From contig JAUXZG010000226.1 of the NCBI GenBank assembly GCA_030694005.1, positions 1 to 32,171 on the forward strand: a DNA stretch of 32,171 bases, in the 5' to 3' direction. The translations under genes and the position numbers were made by a program. The notes beneath the pieces are model-generated. The model was not told where the DNA came from, searched no databases, and saw only the letters and a list, made by a program, of their open reading frames with translations. Positions within the stretch are counted from its first letter, which is position 1; every line of letters starts with the position of its first letter. Of the stretch, positions 18,873-29,229 are shown one piece after another. This DNA is from Desulfobaccales bacterium. GTDB lineage: Bacteria; Desulfobacterota; Desulfobaccia; Desulfobaccales; 0-14-0-80-60-11.

Positions 18873-19676
18873 TCATAACTCAACTACTTCCGAATTGACC
18901 GGCTGGCCCATAAAGAGACCGGCCAGTTGCTGAAAACGGGGAGTGAGGTCGGTGGTGAGATAGCGCCGCTGGCCGCCCCGGCTCAGGCGGCCCTCCATCT
19001 CGGGATGACGCCGCAAATAATCCACCAGTTTGGCCGCGGTCACCTGCCCGGAACAGATCAACTCCCGCCCATTCCCCATAATGCCTCGGATCTGGTCCTT
19101 CAATATGGAATAATGGGTGCAACCCAATATCAAGGTATCCACCCGAGCCGCCTTAAGCGGCGCCAAATAACGCCGCAAAATCATGGCGGTGCCTTCCCAG
19201 TCTTGCTCTCCCGCCTCAATCAAAGGCACCAGTAACGGGCAGGCCTGCTGGATCACCTCCACCGTGGGGTCCAGTTTTTTTAGTTCCAGTTCGAATGATT
19301 GGGACGCCACCGTGCCCTCAGTGCCGATGACCCCGATGCGTTTGCTGCGACTTTTGGCCAGAGCTTCCTCCACCGTGGGAATCACCACCCCCAACACCCG
19401 ATTCTCGTGGTAATGAACCGGTAAATAGACCTGCTGAATGGTCCGCAAGGCCTTGGCCGAGGCCGTGTGACAGGCCAGGATGATCAAGCGGCAGCCCTGA
19501 CGGAACAGGTAATCCACCGCCTGCTCCGTGAACCTGAGCACCACCCGGTCCGACCGGGTGCCATAGGGAATCCTGGCATTGTCCCCTAAATATAAATAAT
19601 CATACCCCGGCAGAAGCTGCAAAAACTCCCGCAGGACCACCAAACCCCCAAAACCCGAATCAAAGACGCCGATCAT
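18873..19676 (-). CDS. murI: Glutamate racemase
   Basis: Start MIGVFDSGFGGLVVLREFLQLLPGYDYLYLGDNARIPYGTRS at 19676; ILACHTASA and LILGCTHYSIL catalytic Cys motifs. Confidence 0.93.
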   Translation of the reverse strand: MIGVFDSGFGGLVVLREFLQLLPGYDYLYLGDNARIPYGTRSDRVVLRFTEQAVDYLFRQGCRLIILACHTASAKALRTIQQVYLPVHYHENRVLGVVIPTVEEALAKSRSKRIGVIGTEGTVASQSFELELKKLDPTVEVIQQACPLLVPLIEAGEQDWEGTAMILRRYLAPLKAARVDTLILGCTHYSILKDQIRGIMGNGRELICSGQVTAAKLVDYLRRHPEMEGRLSRGGQRRYLTTDLTPRFQQLAGLFMGQPVNSEVVEL

Positions 19677-19692
19677 GATGTATAGGTGTAGG

Positions 19693-19745
19693 TTTTGGGG
19701 GAGGCAGGGACCCCTTACAAAAAAGGTCCCTGGCCCTCCCCCCAA
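19693..19745. repeat. G/C-armed palindromic repeat, copy F, just upstream of murI start
   Basis: TTGGGGGAGGCAGGGACCCCTTACAAAAAAGGTCCCTGGCCCTCCCCCC. Confidence 0.85.
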
Positions 19746-19750
19746 TAGCC

Positions 19751-20545
19751 TTACTCCGACAGCCTCAGCAAAGTGCCCCGTTTAAGGGCGTTTTTCAGCG
19801 TTTGGTAGAGCAGAGCGTAGCTGATGAAGATGTATATCACACTTTGCAAGAAGCCGTAAAGCAGGGGGTGTGCGGAGGCCAGGGGAAAGCCGTAGAAGTG
19901 TCGGAAGTAGTCCAGAAAATAGGTGAGGGGAATAAGTTGCGCCAGTTGGCGGGCGCCGGGGGGAAGGACGCTTACCGGGTAATAAAGTCCGCACAACAGC
20001 AGAATGAGGTAAGAGAAGGCCCAGGCCGCCACTTCAGCCCGTTGGCCAAAACGCAGCACCAGGGCCAGGACCAGCGCCCCGATAATAAAGGCATTCAGAA
20101 ATATCCCCAAAAGGAAGAGGATCAGCCCGGCAACTCCCGGGCGCCCCAACTCCATATCGAAAAGCCAGGTGCTCAAAAACCCCATGAGGACAAAGACCAA
20201 CAGTCCCCGCACCAACCCCACCAGACCGGAGCCCAACAGGATATGGGACAGCCGGATGGGAGCCATAAATTCGTGTTTCAGGCTCTTGGCCCAGACGGAG
20301 TAAAGGAGGGCGTAAGACAGGTCCAGTTGGGCGATCTGGATGGTGTTCATGGACACCGCGCCGATGAGGATGAAGGTCACGGTAGCCACGTCCAGTTGGA
20401 GAAAGCGGGTGAGCAGGCCCACGGAAAAAATGGCCACCCCGGGCCAGAAAAACATCTCAAACACCGCAAAGACATTGCGCCGGTTCACCAGGGCGCTGCG
20501 CACCGCGAAGCCCCAGATTTTATTTAAGTCAGTGGGTAATTTCAC
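19751..20545 (-). CDS. ABC-2 type transporter permease
   Basis: 264 aa, multiple TMs, VALVLRFGQRAEVAAWAFSYLILLLCGLYYPVSVLPPGARQLAQLIPLTYFLDYFR. Confidence 0.85.
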   Translation of the reverse strand: MKLPTDLNKIWGFAVRSALVNRRNVFAVFEMFFWPGVAIFSVGLLTRFLQLDVATVTFILIGAVSMNTIQIAQLDLSYALLYSVWAKSLKHEFMAPIRLSHILLGSGLVGLVRGLLVFVLMGFLSTWLFDMELGRPGVAGLILFLLGIFLNAFIIGALVLALVLRFGQRAEVAAWAFSYLILLLCGLYYPVSVLPPGARQLAQLIPLTYFLDYFRHFYGFPLASAHPLLYGFLQSVIYIFISYALLYQTLKNALKRGTLLRLSE

Positions 20546-21467
20546 GGTAAATCTCTTCCAGGTCTACTTCCTGAAGGTGCACTTCGGCGACCGGTTTCTG
20601 GGTTTGGGCAATGGCCTCCAGGATGGGAGCCAGTCTTACTTCCGCCCGATCCACTCTTAGGTCCACCCGGCCAGGTTGCACTTTGAAGCTCAACACCCCG
20701 GGAAGGCGGCCATAGTCAAGCGGGGCCGGGCTGTCCGGGAATATCAGGCTAATCCGGTCCCCCAGCCTCAACCGCTGCTGCAATTCGGCAAGGCCCCCCC
20801 GGGCCAGCAAACGGCCTTCTTTTAAGAAAGCCACCTCGCCGCAAAGCATCTCCGCCTCCCGTAAATTGTGGGTGGTAAGCAGGATGGTCAGGCCGGTCTG
20901 CCGGTTGAGGCGCAGGATTTCCTCCCTAAGATGCTGGGCCATCTCCGGGTCCAAACCGGTGGTGGGTTCGTCCAAAAAAAGCAGCTCCGGAGTATTGATC
21001 AGGGCCTTGGCCAGGCCCAGTCGCTGCTTGAGGCCGGTGGACAGCCGTTCAAAGGTCACCCGGCGGTGGCTGGTCAAGTCGAAAAGCTCTAAAAGCTCTT
21101 CAATCCTGGCGGCCAAAGTCCGGCCGCCCAAACCATAGAGGCGGCCGTAAAACCGCAAATTTTCCTCCGCGGTGAGACACCATAAGAAATGGGCGCCGCT
21201 GGCCGCCAGATTGATTCGCTCCCTAAGAAGGGTGGCCTGCCTGACCACATCCAACCCCAGGACTTGGGCCTGACCGGCGTCCGGGAGCAGCAAACCGGCC
21301 AAAATGGAAATAAAGGTGGTCTTCCCCGCGCCATTGGGCCCCAAGATGCCGAAAATGGCCCCGGCCCCTACCTCCAGATCCACCTCCCGCAATACCGGCT
21401 TTAACGGCCCCCACAGCCGCTCCCGAAACGACTTAACAATCCCCTGCGCTAGAATCGCGGTTTGCAT
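20529..21467 (-). CDS. ABC transporter ATP-binding protein (ABC-2 exporter)
   Basis: Start MQTAILAQGIVKSFRE at 21467; GPNGAGKTTFIS, LSTGLKQRLGLAKALINTPELLFLDEPTTGLDP. Confidence 0.92.
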   Translation of the reverse strand: MQTAILAQGIVKSFRERLWGPLKPVLREVDLEVGAGAIFGILGPNGAGKTTFISILAGLLLPDAGQAQVLGLDVVRQATLLRERINLAASGAHFLWCLTAEENLRFYGRLYGLGGRTLAARIEELLELFDLTSHRRVTFERLSTGLKQRLGLAKALINTPELLFLDEPTTGLDPEMAQHLREEILRLNRQTGLTILLTTHNLREAEMLCGEVAFLKEGRLLARGGLAELQQRLRLGDRISLIFPDSPAPLDYGRLPGVLSFKVQPGRVDLRVDRAEVRLAPILEAIAQTQKPVAEVHLQEVDLEEIYREITH

Positions 21468-21479
21468 GGTTGTTAGGTG

Positions 21480-21525
21480 GTTGGGGGGAGGGCCAGGGAC
21501 CTGAGGTCCCTGCCCTCCCCCAAGA
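21480..21525. repeat. G/C-armed palindromic repeat, copy G, just upstream of ABC ATPase start
   Basis: TTGGGGGGAGGGCCAGGGACCTGAGGTCCCTGCCCTCCCCCAA. Confidence 0.85.
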
Positions 21526-21617
21526 AGTTTACCAAATCCCCGCGCCCCGGCCAAGGTTTTCTGGGGGTGGGGGGGGTGGCTTGCAAACTTGTGTGGGTTG
21601 CGGTAGATTAGCAAGCA

Positions 21618-24283: not shown

Positions 24284-24745
24284 CTATCCCGCGCTGGCTT
24301 TGGGTTGTTTGGCCAGCCAGGCGGCCCGGGCCTGGTGATTCACCGGGCTGGGGCCCAGTTTATAGACCCGCTCGGTCATTTCCTTGGCAATGGCCGCGAA
24401 CTTCGGCCCTTCCGAGGACGACAGGTTGAACATCTCCAGCCGTTCCGGCTCCAGGCCCATGGCGATAAAGTCCTTTTTTACTTTATGCACCCGTTTCTTA
24501 GCCCGGATATTGCCGCTCAAGTAATGGCATTCGCCCTCCAGGCAGCCGGCCACAAAGACCGCGTCGGCCCCGCCCTCAAAGGCCTTGAGCAAATGGATGA
24601 TGTCCACCCGGCCGGTGCAGGGCATCAGGAGGATTTTGATATCCGGGGGATATTGCAGTCGCATCGAACCTGCCAGGTCCGCGGCGCTGTAAGCTCAGTA
24701 GCGGCAACAAAACCCGATGATTTTGGGTGCGAATTCGCTAGTCAT
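24284..24745 (-). CDS. mvhD: MvhD/FrhD-like hydrogenase iron-sulfur subunit; probable selenoprotein with Sec encoded by TGA at 24695-24697
   Basis: From ATG 24745: MTSEFAPKIIGFCCRY-U-AYSAADLAGSMRLQYPPDIKILLMPCTGRVDIIHLLKAFEGGADAVFVAGCLEGECHYLSGNIRAKKRV...; TGA replaces the third Cys of the FCCxxCxYxxAD motif. The ORF track lists only 24284..24664. Confidence 0.88.
24660..24686 (-). promoter_or_regulatory. Putative bacterial SECIS hairpin downstream of the TGA
   Basis: CGC CG CGGACCU-GGC-AGGUUCG AU GCG: 7-bp apical stem, 3-nt loop starting with G, 20 nt from UGA to loop. Confidence 0.65.
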
Positions 24746-24759
24746 GGCTTCTCCTTTCC

Positions 24760-27700
24760 TTAACCCGCGGCCAGGGCCAGTTCCTGGGCGATGATCTGGG
24801 CATCGGTGAAGTGCTTCAGGGTAATGGCCTTGGCCGGGCATTCCGAGACGCACACGCCGCAACCTTGACACTTGGCCGGGTCGATATAGGCGGCATCCAC
24901 CTGGTAATCAATGACTGGCACATTATAGGGACAGGCGCGCACGCAGGTGAGGCACACGGCGCATTTGTCCTGATCCACCTCAGCCACCACGCCGCCCACG
25001 GACACGGTGTCCTGGGCCAGGAAGGTGGCGGCCCGGCCCGCGGCGGCCTTGGCCTGGGTGATGGACTCGTCAATGGGCTTGGGATAGTGGGCCAGCCCGG
25101 CCAGGAAGATGCCGTCCGTGGGGAAATCCACCGGCCGCAGCTTGGCGTGGGCCTCGTTAAAGAAGCCTTCGGCGTTTCTGGGCAACTTGAAGATCTCGCC
25201 CAACTCATCCGTGGGGTTGGGCAGCACCGCAGAGGCCAGGGTGAGCAGGTCCGGTTTCAAAATTACAGGCATTCCTAAGATGGGGTCGGTCACCGTTACC
25301 TGGATGCCGCCTTCCGGGGTCTTGTCCACCTGGGGCTTGCCTTCCAGGTCGAAGCGGATGAACACCACCCCCAGCTCCCGGGCCTCTTTGTAGAGCAGCT
25401 CTTTTTCGCCATAGGTGCGCAGGTCCCGGTAGAGGATAAAGACATCCAGGTCCGGGTTGAGCTTTTTGAGTTCAATGGCGCTTTCCACCGAATGGGTGCA
25501 GCACAGGCGGCTGCAGTAAGGGCGCTCCGGCTCCCGGCTGCCCACGCACTGGATGAACACGGCCTGCCCGGCCTGGTTCAGCCGGGGATCCTTGTCGACA
25601 ATGGCCTTATCCAGTTCCAGCGAGGTCATGACATTGGGGTGCTGGCCGTAGAGGTATTCGTCAGGCGACAGGCCGTAACCGCCCGTGGCCATGATGGTCA
25701 CCCCGTGTTCCAGGTCCCGCTCGCCCGCCGGAGTGGTGACGATGGTCTTGAAATTGCCGACGAAGCCCCTGGTGTCCTTGATGGCCGAGTTGAACAGGAC
25801 TTCGATATTCGGGTGATTTTCTACAGTTTTGATCAGGTCTTCCAGATAGCCCCGATAATTGTAACCCCGGGAGCTGACCACCAGGTTCCAGGCGTTGCCG
25901 CCCAGGCGGTCGGTTTTCTCCACCAGGTAGGCCTGAAAGCCCATATCGGCGAGGGAGCGGGCCGCTTCCAGGCCGGCCACCCCGCCGCCGATGACGATGC
26001 CGGATTTGGACACCGGGAACTGCATTTTGTGGAGCGGCTCCAGTTTGACCAGCCGCGCGGCCACGCCCCGCACCAGGTCCTTGGCCTTCTCCAGGGCCTT
26101 TTCGGGCTCATGCATGTGCACCCAGGAATCCTGGTCCCGAATGTTGGCCATCTCAAAGAGGTAGGGGTTCAGCCCCACCTGGCGGATGGTCTCCATGAAC
26201 ATGGGGGCGTGGGTGCGGGGGCTGCAGGAGGCCACCAGGACCCGGTTCAGTTTGTGTTCTTCAATGGCCTGCAGGATTTTATCCTGGGTGTCTGCCGAGC
26301 AGGTGAACAGGTTCTGGTCGGCAAAGACCACGTTAGGCAGGGTGGCGGCATATTCCGTCAGAGTGGGGACATCGATCACCCCGCCGATGTTGATGCCGCA
26401 GTTGCAGACAAAGACGCCGATCCTGGGCTCCTCGCCGCTGACATCTCTTTCCGGCGGCAGGACCTGGACCTTGATGTCCTGGTTGCGGGCTGCAGCCAGC
26501 AGTTCCCCGGCCACCGCCGCGGCGGCGGAGGCCTCCATGACGGATTGGGGAATGTCCTTGGGGGCCTGGAAAACGCCGCAGGTATAGATACCCGGCTTGC
26601 TGGTGCTCACCGGGGTAAAGGGCGACGTAGCGGCAAAGCGGGTCTCCAGCTTGACGTCGATCCCCAGGGTGGCGGCCACCTGCAAGGCGTCCTTGGAGGT
26701 CTCCAGGCCCACAGAGAGCACCACCATGTCAAAGTCTTCCACCTTGATCTCCCCGGTTTCCGTGAGATAGCGGATGCGCACATTGTCAGATTCCGGAATT
26801 GGGTCGATGGTGTGGATGCGGGAGCGGATGAAGCGCACGCCGTGTTCCTGCTCCGCCCGCCAGTAATATTTCTCGAAGTCCTTGCCGTGGGTGCGCATGT
26901 CCATGAAGAAGACGGCGGTGTCCAGGGGATCCTTGCTGTGTTCTTTGGCAATCACCGTCTGCTTGATGGCGTACATGCAACACACCGCGGAGCAGTAGCT
27001 GTTGTCGCAATGGTTCAGGTCCCGGGAGCCCACGCACTGGAGCCAGGCGATCTTCTTGGGCTCTTCATGGTCCGAGGGCCGGATGAGATGGCCCATGAAA
27101 GGGCCGGAAGCGGACAGAATGCGCTCGAACTCTAGGCCGGTCACCACATTAGGAAATTTGGCATAATGGTATGCGTCATACTTGGTGGGGTCAAAGGCGC
27201 TAAAGCCGGCGGCCAGCACCACCGCGCCCACGTTGAGCTCCACGGTCTGGGGTTCCTGGTCGTGGGCCACGGCGCCGGCCTGGCAGGCGATGGCGCACTG
27301 CATGCATTCGGAGCACACCCCGCAGTTGATGCAGCGGCCCGCCTCAGCCACGGCGTCGGCTTCCTCAAAGCCCAGGTTGGTCTCTTTAAAGCTCTTGGTC
27401 CACTCCTTAACCGGCAGGGTGGGCATGGCGGCCCGGGGCTGCTTCTCCCCTTTCGGGATGGGGTTCCAATTGCCGTCTTTGATGGGCCGCAACGGGAACT
27501 GACGGTCAGCCTTGAGGTCCTGGCCGCTCAAATAGCGGTCGATGGAGACGGCCGCTTCCCGGCCGGCGGCCACCGCGGCGATGGCAATATAGGGGCCGGA
27601 GACCACGTCGCCCCCGGCAAACACTTCCTTGCGGCTGGTGGCCAGGGTGTCCGGGTCGGCTTTAATCAAGCCCCGGGGGGTAATCTCGATGCTGTCGGCC

Positions 27701-29229
27701 GCGGTGATAAATTTCAGGTTGGTCTTCTGGCCGATGGAAAAAATGACTACATCGGCTTGACGGGTGCTCACTCGGTCTTCAAAATAAGTGGGGGCAAACC
27801 GGCCTTGGTCGTCAAACACCCTTTCCACCGCCTTGAGTTCGAGGCCGGTCACCTTACCGCCTTTGGCCAACACCTCCTTGACACCCAGGCGGTGGACAAT
27901 GTCGATGCCTTCGTGTTCGGCCTCTTCCACTTCCCAGGGGGAGGCGGGCATCTCTTCGCGAGTTTCCAGGGCGATCATGGTGACCGAGGCGGCCTTTTGG
28001 CGCCGGGCGGTGCGGGCCACGTCGATGGCCACGTTGCCGCCGCCGATGACCAGCACCTTTTTGCCGGCCAGCGGGTTGGGCGCGCCCATTTTCACATCCT
28101 TGAGGTATTCCACCCCCCAGAGCACCCCCTGGGCCTCGGTGCCGGGCACCGGCAGGCGCAGGGAATCCTGGGCCCCCACACCGATGAAGACTGCCGCGAA
28201 CCCGTCCCGGGTCAAAAGGTCATTGATGCTCTGCTTGGGGCCGATGGGCGAGTTATATTTGATGTCCACGCCCAGGCGCTTGATATAATTGATTTCCCGG
28301 TCCAAAACGTCCTGGGGCAGGCGGTAATCGGGAATCCCCCACCTGAGCCAGCCGCCGGCCTTGGGCCCGGCCTCAAAGATCACCGGGTGGTAGCCCTTGA
28401 GGGCCAGGTGATAGGCGCAGCTTAACCCCGATGGGCCGGCGCCCACAATGGCCACCGCTTCCGAACGCTTGTCCACCTCGGGCACCGGCAGGGCGTCCCA
28501 GTCCGCCTGGTCCGCCACAAAACGCTTCAGAGAGCAGATGGCAATGGGCTCGTCCATTTCCTGGCGGCGGCAGTCGCTCTCACACGGGTGCGGACAGACC
28601 CGGCCGATGGTGCCGGGCAGGGGCAGGTGCTCCATAATCAAGGAGAGGGATTCGGGGAATTTGCCCGCCTTGATCAACTGCACATACCCCTGGGCGGTCA
28701 AGTTGGCCGGGCAGGCCCTGACACATGGGGCCCGATCGAATTTCTTGATGGCGAAAGTGGAGGGGATGGCTTGAGGGTAGAGGCGATAAATGGCCTTGGC
28801 TTCCGAGAGTCCCAGATTAAAGTCATCTGAGACGCCCACCGGGCATACTTCCGTACAGGCCCCGCAGCCGGTACATTTGGCCGGATCGATATAGCGGGCC
28901 TGCTTCGCCAAAGTCACCTTAAAATTACCCGGTTTCCCGGAGATTTCTTTAACTTCGGAGAGAGTATTGATTTCAATGTTCAGGTGACGGCCGCATTCCA
29001 CCAGCTTGGGGGAGATGATGCACATGGAACAGTCGTTGGTGGGGAAGGTCTTGTCTAGTTGCGCCATGACCCCGCCGATGGCCGACTTCTTTTCCACCAA
29101 GTGGACATAAAAACCGGCATTGGCCAGGTCCAGGGCCGCCTGAACCCCGGCGATGCCGGCGCCCACCACCATTACTTTACCTACCGGGTTTTGGACCCGC
29201 GCCTCTTTTGCCATAAAATTACCTTTCAT
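24760..29229 (-). CDS. hdrA: HdrA-like protein: HdrA + internal GltD/NfnB-like NAD(P)H oxidoreductase module + second HdrA-like module + C-terminal ferredoxin domain
   Basis: 1489 aa; VVGAGIAGVQAALDLANAGF...GGVMAQLDKTFPTNDCSMCIISPKLVECGRH; insert FDRAPCVRACPANLTAQGYV...AVAIVGAGPSGLSCAYHLALKGY...KKVLVIGGGNVAIDVARTARR; second GIVIGGGVAGLEAARSLADMGF; C-term CAVCLTCVRACPYNVP...CQGCGVCVSECPAKAI. Confidence 0.9.
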   Translation of the reverse strand: MKGNFMAKEARVQNPVGKVMVVGAGIAGVQAALDLANAGFYVHLVEKKSAIGGVMAQLDKTFPTNDCSMCIISPKLVECGRHLNIEINTLSEVKEISGKPGNFKVTLAKQARYIDPAKCTGCGACTEVCPVGVSDDFNLGLSEAKAIYRLYPQAIPSTFAIKKFDRAPCVRACPANLTAQGYVQLIKAGKFPESLSLIMEHLPLPGTIGRVCPHPCESDCRRQEMDEPIAICSLKRFVADQADWDALPVPEVDKRSEAVAIVGAGPSGLSCAYHLALKGYHPVIFEAGPKAGGWLRWGIPDYRLPQDVLDREINYIKRLGVDIKYNSPIGPKQSINDLLTRDGFAAVFIGVGAQDSLRLPVPGTEAQGVLWGVEYLKDVKMGAPNPLAGKKVLVIGGGNVAIDVARTARRQKAASVTMIALETREEMPASPWEVEEAEHEGIDIVHRLGVKEVLAKGGKVTGLELKAVERVFDDQGRFAPTYFEDRVSTRQADVVIFSIGQKTNLKFITAADSIEITPRGLIKADPDTLATSRKEVFAGGDVVSGPYIAIAAVAAGREAAVSIDRYLSGQDLKADRQFPLRPIKDGNWNPIPKGEKQPRAAMPTLPVKEWTKSFKETNLGFEEADAVAEAGRCINCGVCSECMQCAIACQAGAVAHDQEPQTVELNVGAVVLAAGFSAFDPTKYDAYHYAKFPNVVTGLEFERILSASGPFMGHLIRPSDHEEPKKIAWLQCVGSRDLNHCDNSYCSAVCCMYAIKQTVIAKEHSKDPLDTAVFFMDMRTHGKDFEKYYWRAEQEHGVRFIRSRIHTIDPIPESDNVRIRYLTETGEIKVEDFDMVVLSVGLETSKDALQVAATLGIDVKLETRFAATSPFTPVSTSKPGIYTCGVFQAPKDIPQSVMEASAAAAVAGELLAAARNQDIKVQVLPPERDVSGEEPRIGVFVCNCGINIGGVIDVPTLTEYAATLPNVVFADQNLFTCSADTQDKILQAIEEHKLNRVLVASCSPRTHAPMFMETIRQVGLNPYLFEMANIRDQDSWVHMHEPEKALEKAKDLVRGVAARLVKLEPLHKMQFPVSKSGIVIGGGVAGLEAARSLADMGFQAYLVEKTDRLGGNAWNLVVSSRGYNYRGYLEDLIKTVENHPNIEVLFNSAIKDTRGFVGNFKTIVTTPAGERDLEHGVTIMATGGYGLSPDEYLYGQHPNVMTSLELDKAIVDKDPRLNQAGQAVFIQCVGSREPERPYCSRLCCTHSVESAIELKKLNPDLDVFILYRDLRTYGEKELLYKEARELGVVFIRFDLEGKPQVDKTPEGGIQVTVTDPILGMPVILKPDLLTLASAVLPNPTDELGEIFKLPRNAEGFFNEAHAKLRPVDFPTDGIFLAGLAHYPKPIDESITQAKAAAGRAATFLAQDTVSVGGVVAEVDQDKCAVCLTCVRACPYNVPVIDYQVDAAYIDPAKCQGCGVCVSECPAKAITLKHFTDAQIIAQELALAAG

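Follow-up and report, generated by a model that had tools for sequence, protein, structure and literature searches.

The gene of the mvhD/frhD type that lies directly downstream of an hdr gene on the minus strand of contig JAUXZG010000226.1 of a Desulfobaccales bacterium raises the question of where its protein begins. In the mechanical list of open reading frames for the window (the whole stretch of 32,171 nucleotides that was analysed), this gene starts at an ATG at 24664. The first-pass annotation had correctly noted that this start is internal, and proposed instead that the gene begins further upstream and contains an in-frame TGA encoding selenocysteine (Sec). As it had also rightly remarked, MvhD is already known as a Sec-containing family: 19 bacterial selenoproteins of the FrhD/MvhD type were recorded in 2006 (PMC1794560), mvhD1, 2, 3 and 5 of Desulfobacterium autotrophicum HRM2 were reported as Sec-containing in 2009 (PMC2702500), and a review lists the FrhD/MvhD/VhuD family with the motif CxxU and two Sec residues (PMC13188914). 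Functionally, MvhD is a [2Fe-2S] connector feeding electrons to the FAD of HdrA (PMC12350162, PMC2702500). Does the gene in the window belong with these selenoproteins, or does its UGA have another explanation?

On the minus strand, a frame of 153 codons (24284..24745) runs from an ATG at 24745 to a TAG ending at 24284, with a single in-frame TGA at 24697-24695; the TGA, the upstream ATG and the resulting extension of 27 residues had been placed correctly to the base in the first-pass annotation. This extension ahead of the internal Met at 24664 reads MTSEFAPKIIGFCCRY-U-AYSAADLAGS, and the upstream context on the same strand is ...GGGTTAAGGAAAGGAGAAGCC-ATG at 24745, with a Shine-Dalgarno sequence, AGGAG (24751..24755, minus strand), standing 5 nt before the ATG. 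In a Pfam search the read-through product matches the FlpD profile (PF02662, E = 1.1e-46) from residue 9 to 131 of 153 and along its entire length (1-123/123), i.e. it constitutes a complete FlpD/MvhD domain. Its nearest solved relatives in a sequence comparison with the PDB are MvhD/VhuD chains (best E = 8.6e-39), and this match to solved MvhD is decisive for the predicted fold.

These observations bear on the simplest alternative, in which the UGA is an ordinary stop codon terminating a short leader peptide, and the real protein is a 126-aa product initiated at the internal ATG (Met28; 24662..24664, minus strand). That codon, which adjoins the 3' arm of the upper stem of the hairpin discussed below, is exactly the start that an ordinary ORF caller chooses, and Met28 is conserved in orthologues. 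This conservation is no sign of a start, because Met28 is part of a protein motif, AGxMRL, common to close Cys-containing paralogues. On the contrary, the residues ahead of Met28 (FCCRY-U-AYSAADLAGS) are conserved as protein, the Pfam domain begins at residue 9, the ATG at 24745 has a good Shine-Dalgarno sequence ahead of it, and, of the five conserved Cys/Sec positions, the 126-aa product would miss two (C14 and residue 17). We therefore regard the leader-peptide explanation as very unlikely and favor translation of the entire frame through the UGA.

The UGA (codon 17; 24695..24697, minus strand) falls in the motif F-C-C-R-Y-U, and upon alignment its column is seen to be Cys in MvhD/VhuD homologues, giving rise here to C14-x-x-U17 (CxxU). 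In chain 9sfi_K, a solved archaeal homologue, a non-standard residue (X) occupies both the TGA column and the second MvhD motif. The VhuD proteins of some methanogens contain two Sec residues, and from this knowledge we take the X residues of 9sfi_K to be Sec. A TGA at the same codon, one per gene, is present in 16/16 other orthologues from the same order (71-85% identity; the order being represented by 29 genomes, including the one under study), and it recurs in more distant orthologues as well as in homologues from G018, a single-contig genome; the order also has paralogues whose codon 17 is TGC or TGT. C14, C43 and C73 show essentially no variation across ~190 homologues. Column 17 has U in 169 and C in 22 of 191 homologues and no other residue, where the surplus of U arises by construction, as the search pattern demanded TGA, and only the restriction to C or U is free of this bias. 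Column 68, equally free of it, has C in 164 and U in 27, again with no other residue. The initial proposal that the TGA coincides with a conserved Cys/Sec column of MvhD is thus borne out, and the UGA of mvhD is almost certainly read as selenocysteine. The window does come from a fragmented draft assembly, in which a sequencing error, or a gene broken in one strain only, might be entertained; yet the same TGA recurs in every close orthologue from independently assembled genomes and in the homologues of the single-contig G018, and the frame past the TGA is intact and conserved, which leaves such an artifact a negligible probability.

Further FlpD copies are encoded in the same genome. Two of these, C2:6162-6530 and C227:16348-16716, carry their TGA in the second motif (VCGU, GGU), which makes them candidates for additional selenoprotein genes; another, C171:52099-52467, has Cys at both motifs. 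With a TGA at the first motif in one copy and at the second in others, the genome therefore appears to place Sec at either of the two known positions, depending on the copy. Two Sec are present in archaeal VhuD and in some bacterial copies, whereas the gene under study has Sec at the first motif only. Separately, we observed tandem mvhD genes with TGA and Cys at codon 17 side by side in two genomes (L060/L083 on G006:C89 and L071 on G019:C159), each possibly a Sec/Cys isoform pair.

In the phylum, 143 of the 395 genomes sampled contain a match to a codon-degenerate pattern for U-[AG]-Y-x-A-A-D-L-A-G, the reversed-pattern control giving 0 matches in the same 395; the pattern also recovered at least 118 stretches in the GTDB genome collection. 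The translations of all 165 unique matches listed are MvhD-like around the TGA. The GTDB matches listed are mostly from Desulfobacterota, along with Firmicutes, Acidobacteria, other MAGs and Lokiarchaeota. Sec-type MvhD is also seen, among the matches listed, in contigs labelled Eisenbacteria, Bacteroidetes, Methylomirabilota and Planctomycetota, as well as Acidobacteria, Dehalococcoidales, Aminicenantes and Chloroflexi; this reflects either a broad spread or binning errors in MAGs. Given that a UGA at codon 17 is so widespread in the phylum (143/395), it is likely that MvhD is often predicted in truncated form.

If the UGA is decoded as Sec, a bacterial SECIS element (bSECIS) would be expected close behind it. 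The first-pass annotation had described a hairpin with a 3-nt loop starting with G, 20 nt after the UGA, and we locate this element at 24660..24686 on the minus strand. Its upper part, CGGACCU / GGC / AGGUUCG (24681-24665), comprises a 7-bp stem (24681-24675 / 24671-24665) and the loop GGC (24674-24672), and below it lies a 3-bp stem, CGC/GCG. The bSECIS model prescribes a loop of 3-9 nt with a G in the first two loop positions, an upper stem of 4-16 bp, a distance of 16-37 nt from the UGA, and a minimum free energy at or below -7.5 kcal/mol (PMC13188914). The GGC loop, the 7-bp upper stem and the 20-nt spacing fall inside these published limits; the energy does so only with the lower stem included (-12.3 kcal/mol for the 28-nt element), the upper stem alone (-6.9 kcal/mol) being just short. 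Applied to the upper stem alone, this energy threshold is too strict, in that none of the A-type sequences (the bacterial sequences with ADLAGSM/E) reaches -7.5 kcal/mol on the upper stem alone, while all 90 share the loop and spacing. At gathering scores, Rfam gave no match anywhere in the window. For the single sequence, the folding energy of the region is modestly better than that of shuffles (z = -1.6), and the fold alone is thus weak evidence.

It is comparative evidence that carries the case for the predicted hairpin. Of 90 related sequences, 89 have a stem of at least 6 bp (6-7 bp) at precisely this register, as against 0.7% of synonymous recodings. The codons GCG GAC CTG GCA GGT are each identical in 88-89 of the 89 bacterial A-type sequences, and the homozygosity of these five hairpin codons is 0.98-1.0, versus a mean of 0.45 and a maximum of 0.65 at 30 other conserved columns; since these control columns come from the same genes in the same sequences, shared descent is ruled out as the cause of the codon freezing. 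In archaeal homologues with Sec at the same place (n = 8; Lokiarchaeota and one MAG labelled Euryarchaeota) there is no such freezing, hairpin-codon homozygosity being 0.49 versus 0.45, and a qualifying hairpin is lacking in 5/8. In the literature, archaeal SECIS elements are placed in the 3'UTR. The comparison supports a strong, bacteria-specific nucleotide constraint on the putative SECIS hairpin: codons that are frozen in bacteria but free in archaea, at the same Sec position, are a clear sign in the sequences of selection on an RNA hairpin and not just on the protein. The element thereby fits a bacterial SECIS, for which SelB binding and UGA read-through are predicted, and the initial description of its loop and spacing holds.

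A second clade of MvhD (ADLAGVSR) mostly has another hairpin, with the loop GUU at 27 nt (43/65), and a smaller group within it has the loop GGCUG at 20 nt (7/65). Hence, elements of this kind have arisen at more than one register within the MvhD family, and the differing SECIS-like hairpin of this clade at the same UGA position hints at separate origins.

The first-pass annotation had recommended a search for selA, selB, selC and selD, and regarded their absence from the genome as an argument against its reading. In profile searches, selA (605 bits) and selB (359 bits) are both complete and above the curated cut-offs, but the draft (2.62 Mb in 260 contigs, 94.7% complete) yielded neither selD nor, in a search that scored part of the first-look candidates, tRNA-Sec (selC). 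As selC and selD are missing from the draft, half of that argument applies. Own-genome matches to RF01852 were rejected as tRNA-Sec, being ordinary tRNAs by ARAGORN, as were matches to the selD profile, which are ThiL-, HypE- and PurM-like by sequence and neighbours. Relatives, on the other hand, have tRNA-Sec in 22/25 and SelD in 23/25 genomes, the SelD of these relatives itself carrying a TGA. In several of them selD is directly adjoined by tyrS, and in the genome under study 391 bp separate the 5' end of tyrS from where contig C107 (9533 bp) stops, which suggests that the site of selD is unassembled. This contig end is a likely explanation for the missing selD, albeit not a proof. As for tRNA-Sec, four relatives have it between a few and some tens of bases from the edge of a contig, and two have it in duplicate, so its absence from the draft is unsurprising.

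Two alternatives draw on these missing genes. One is that the TGA is read as another amino acid, by code reassignment or by read-through with Trp or Cys, a notion to which the absence of selC and selD from the draft lends some color. Nevertheless, TGA is the stop codon of, at the least, murI (18873-19745) and a gene for an ABC transporter (20529-21614) elsewhere in the window, the other in-frame TGAs also fall at a known MvhD Sec position, the hairpin is constrained and selA and selB are present; we accord this notion hardly any weight. The other alternative is that mvhD used to work as a selenoprotein gene until the genome, very recently, lost selC and selD and with them the ability to decode Sec. 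Neither selD nor tRNA-Sec has a match in this genome, in contrast to nearly all relatives, but selA and selB are intact, as are, apart from their TGAs, all three TGA-bearing mvhD genes; furthermore, the site of selD is unassembled at the end of C107, and tRNA-Sec is at the extreme contig end in several relatives, as expected of a gene that breaks assemblies. A recent loss is thus highly improbable. The original interpretation of mvhD as a Sec gene with a bSECIS is, at the level of sequence, supported, and the case that it is a genuine added member of a selenoprotein family known for about twenty years, with the same PF02662 domain and CxxU motif as the FrhD/MvhD/VhuD selenoproteins, is well supported.

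The presumed partner of this MvhD is encoded directly upstream (24760..29229, minus strand), its stop codon TAA (24762-24760) being followed by a 14-nt gap before the mvhD ATG. Although the initial annotation had this gap right, the gene is not a plain hdrA as it had supposed: the 1489-aa product has ferredoxin domains and HdrA halves into which a GltD-like NAD(P)H/FAD module is inserted. Such an HdrA/GltD-like fusion with mvhD directly downstream is the definition of HdrL (PMC2702500), and this gene order is kept in close orthologues from the same order (loci L055-L070). The arrangement is reminiscent of D. autotrophicum HRM2, a sulfate reducer, where every HdrL is paired with an MvhD and HdrA/GltD fusions are directly followed by mvhD genes, with Sec-containing MvhDs among them (PMC2702500). 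There are also differences: the hdrL1 unit of HRM2 is followed by dsrABC and its HdrL1 and HdrL3 are themselves selenoproteins (PMC2702500), whereas here no dsr genes follow and hdrL is without an in-frame TGA. The comparisons show a coding frame, a predicted Sec position, a constrained SECIS-like element and a kept gene order at the locus, which we consider very probably to be a unit of two genes, hdrL and mvhD, the latter coding for a selenoprotein.

In the mechanism that we envisage, ribosomes would start at the ATG at 24745 and reach the UGA at codon 17, where SelB with Sec-tRNA(Sec) would bind the hairpin past the UGA and selenocysteine would be inserted, with translation then running on to the TAG at 24284. 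The resulting 153-aa MvhD, with a [2Fe-2S] cluster, would relay electrons between its partner and the FAD in the Hdr protein; both the cluster and this role as connector are taken from literature on relatives. Expression of the unit, Sec insertion in the organism and the redox partners are what we infer. Because an NAD(P)H-type module is built into HdrL, electrons probably pass through the unit among NAD(P)H, ferredoxin-type clusters and a disulfide/thiol acceptor; in this sulfate-reducer-type bacterium its task would probably be to shuttle electrons between NAD(P)H and a disulfide or thiol acceptor of the Hdr type.

Apart from the truncation, the spread and the contrast in codon usage between bacteria and archaea, the finding is ordinary for the family. 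The truncation means that an ordinary ORF caller clips a core energy-metabolism gene by 27 residues, including two of its five conserved Cys/Sec positions. As to what the selenocysteine does, we tentatively raise the possibility, itself rather doubtful, that Sec17 of the HdrL-linked MvhD is a redox part of the connector, either by ligating the [2Fe-2S] cluster as a selenolate or by pairing with C14 or C68 in a selenenylsulfide. The mechanism by which two electrons bridge the long distance to the FAD of Hdr has been called unknown (PMC12350162); if Sec17 has such a role, it would help carry two electrons over this distance, and this would explain the strict keeping of Sec and of the hairpin across the phylum.
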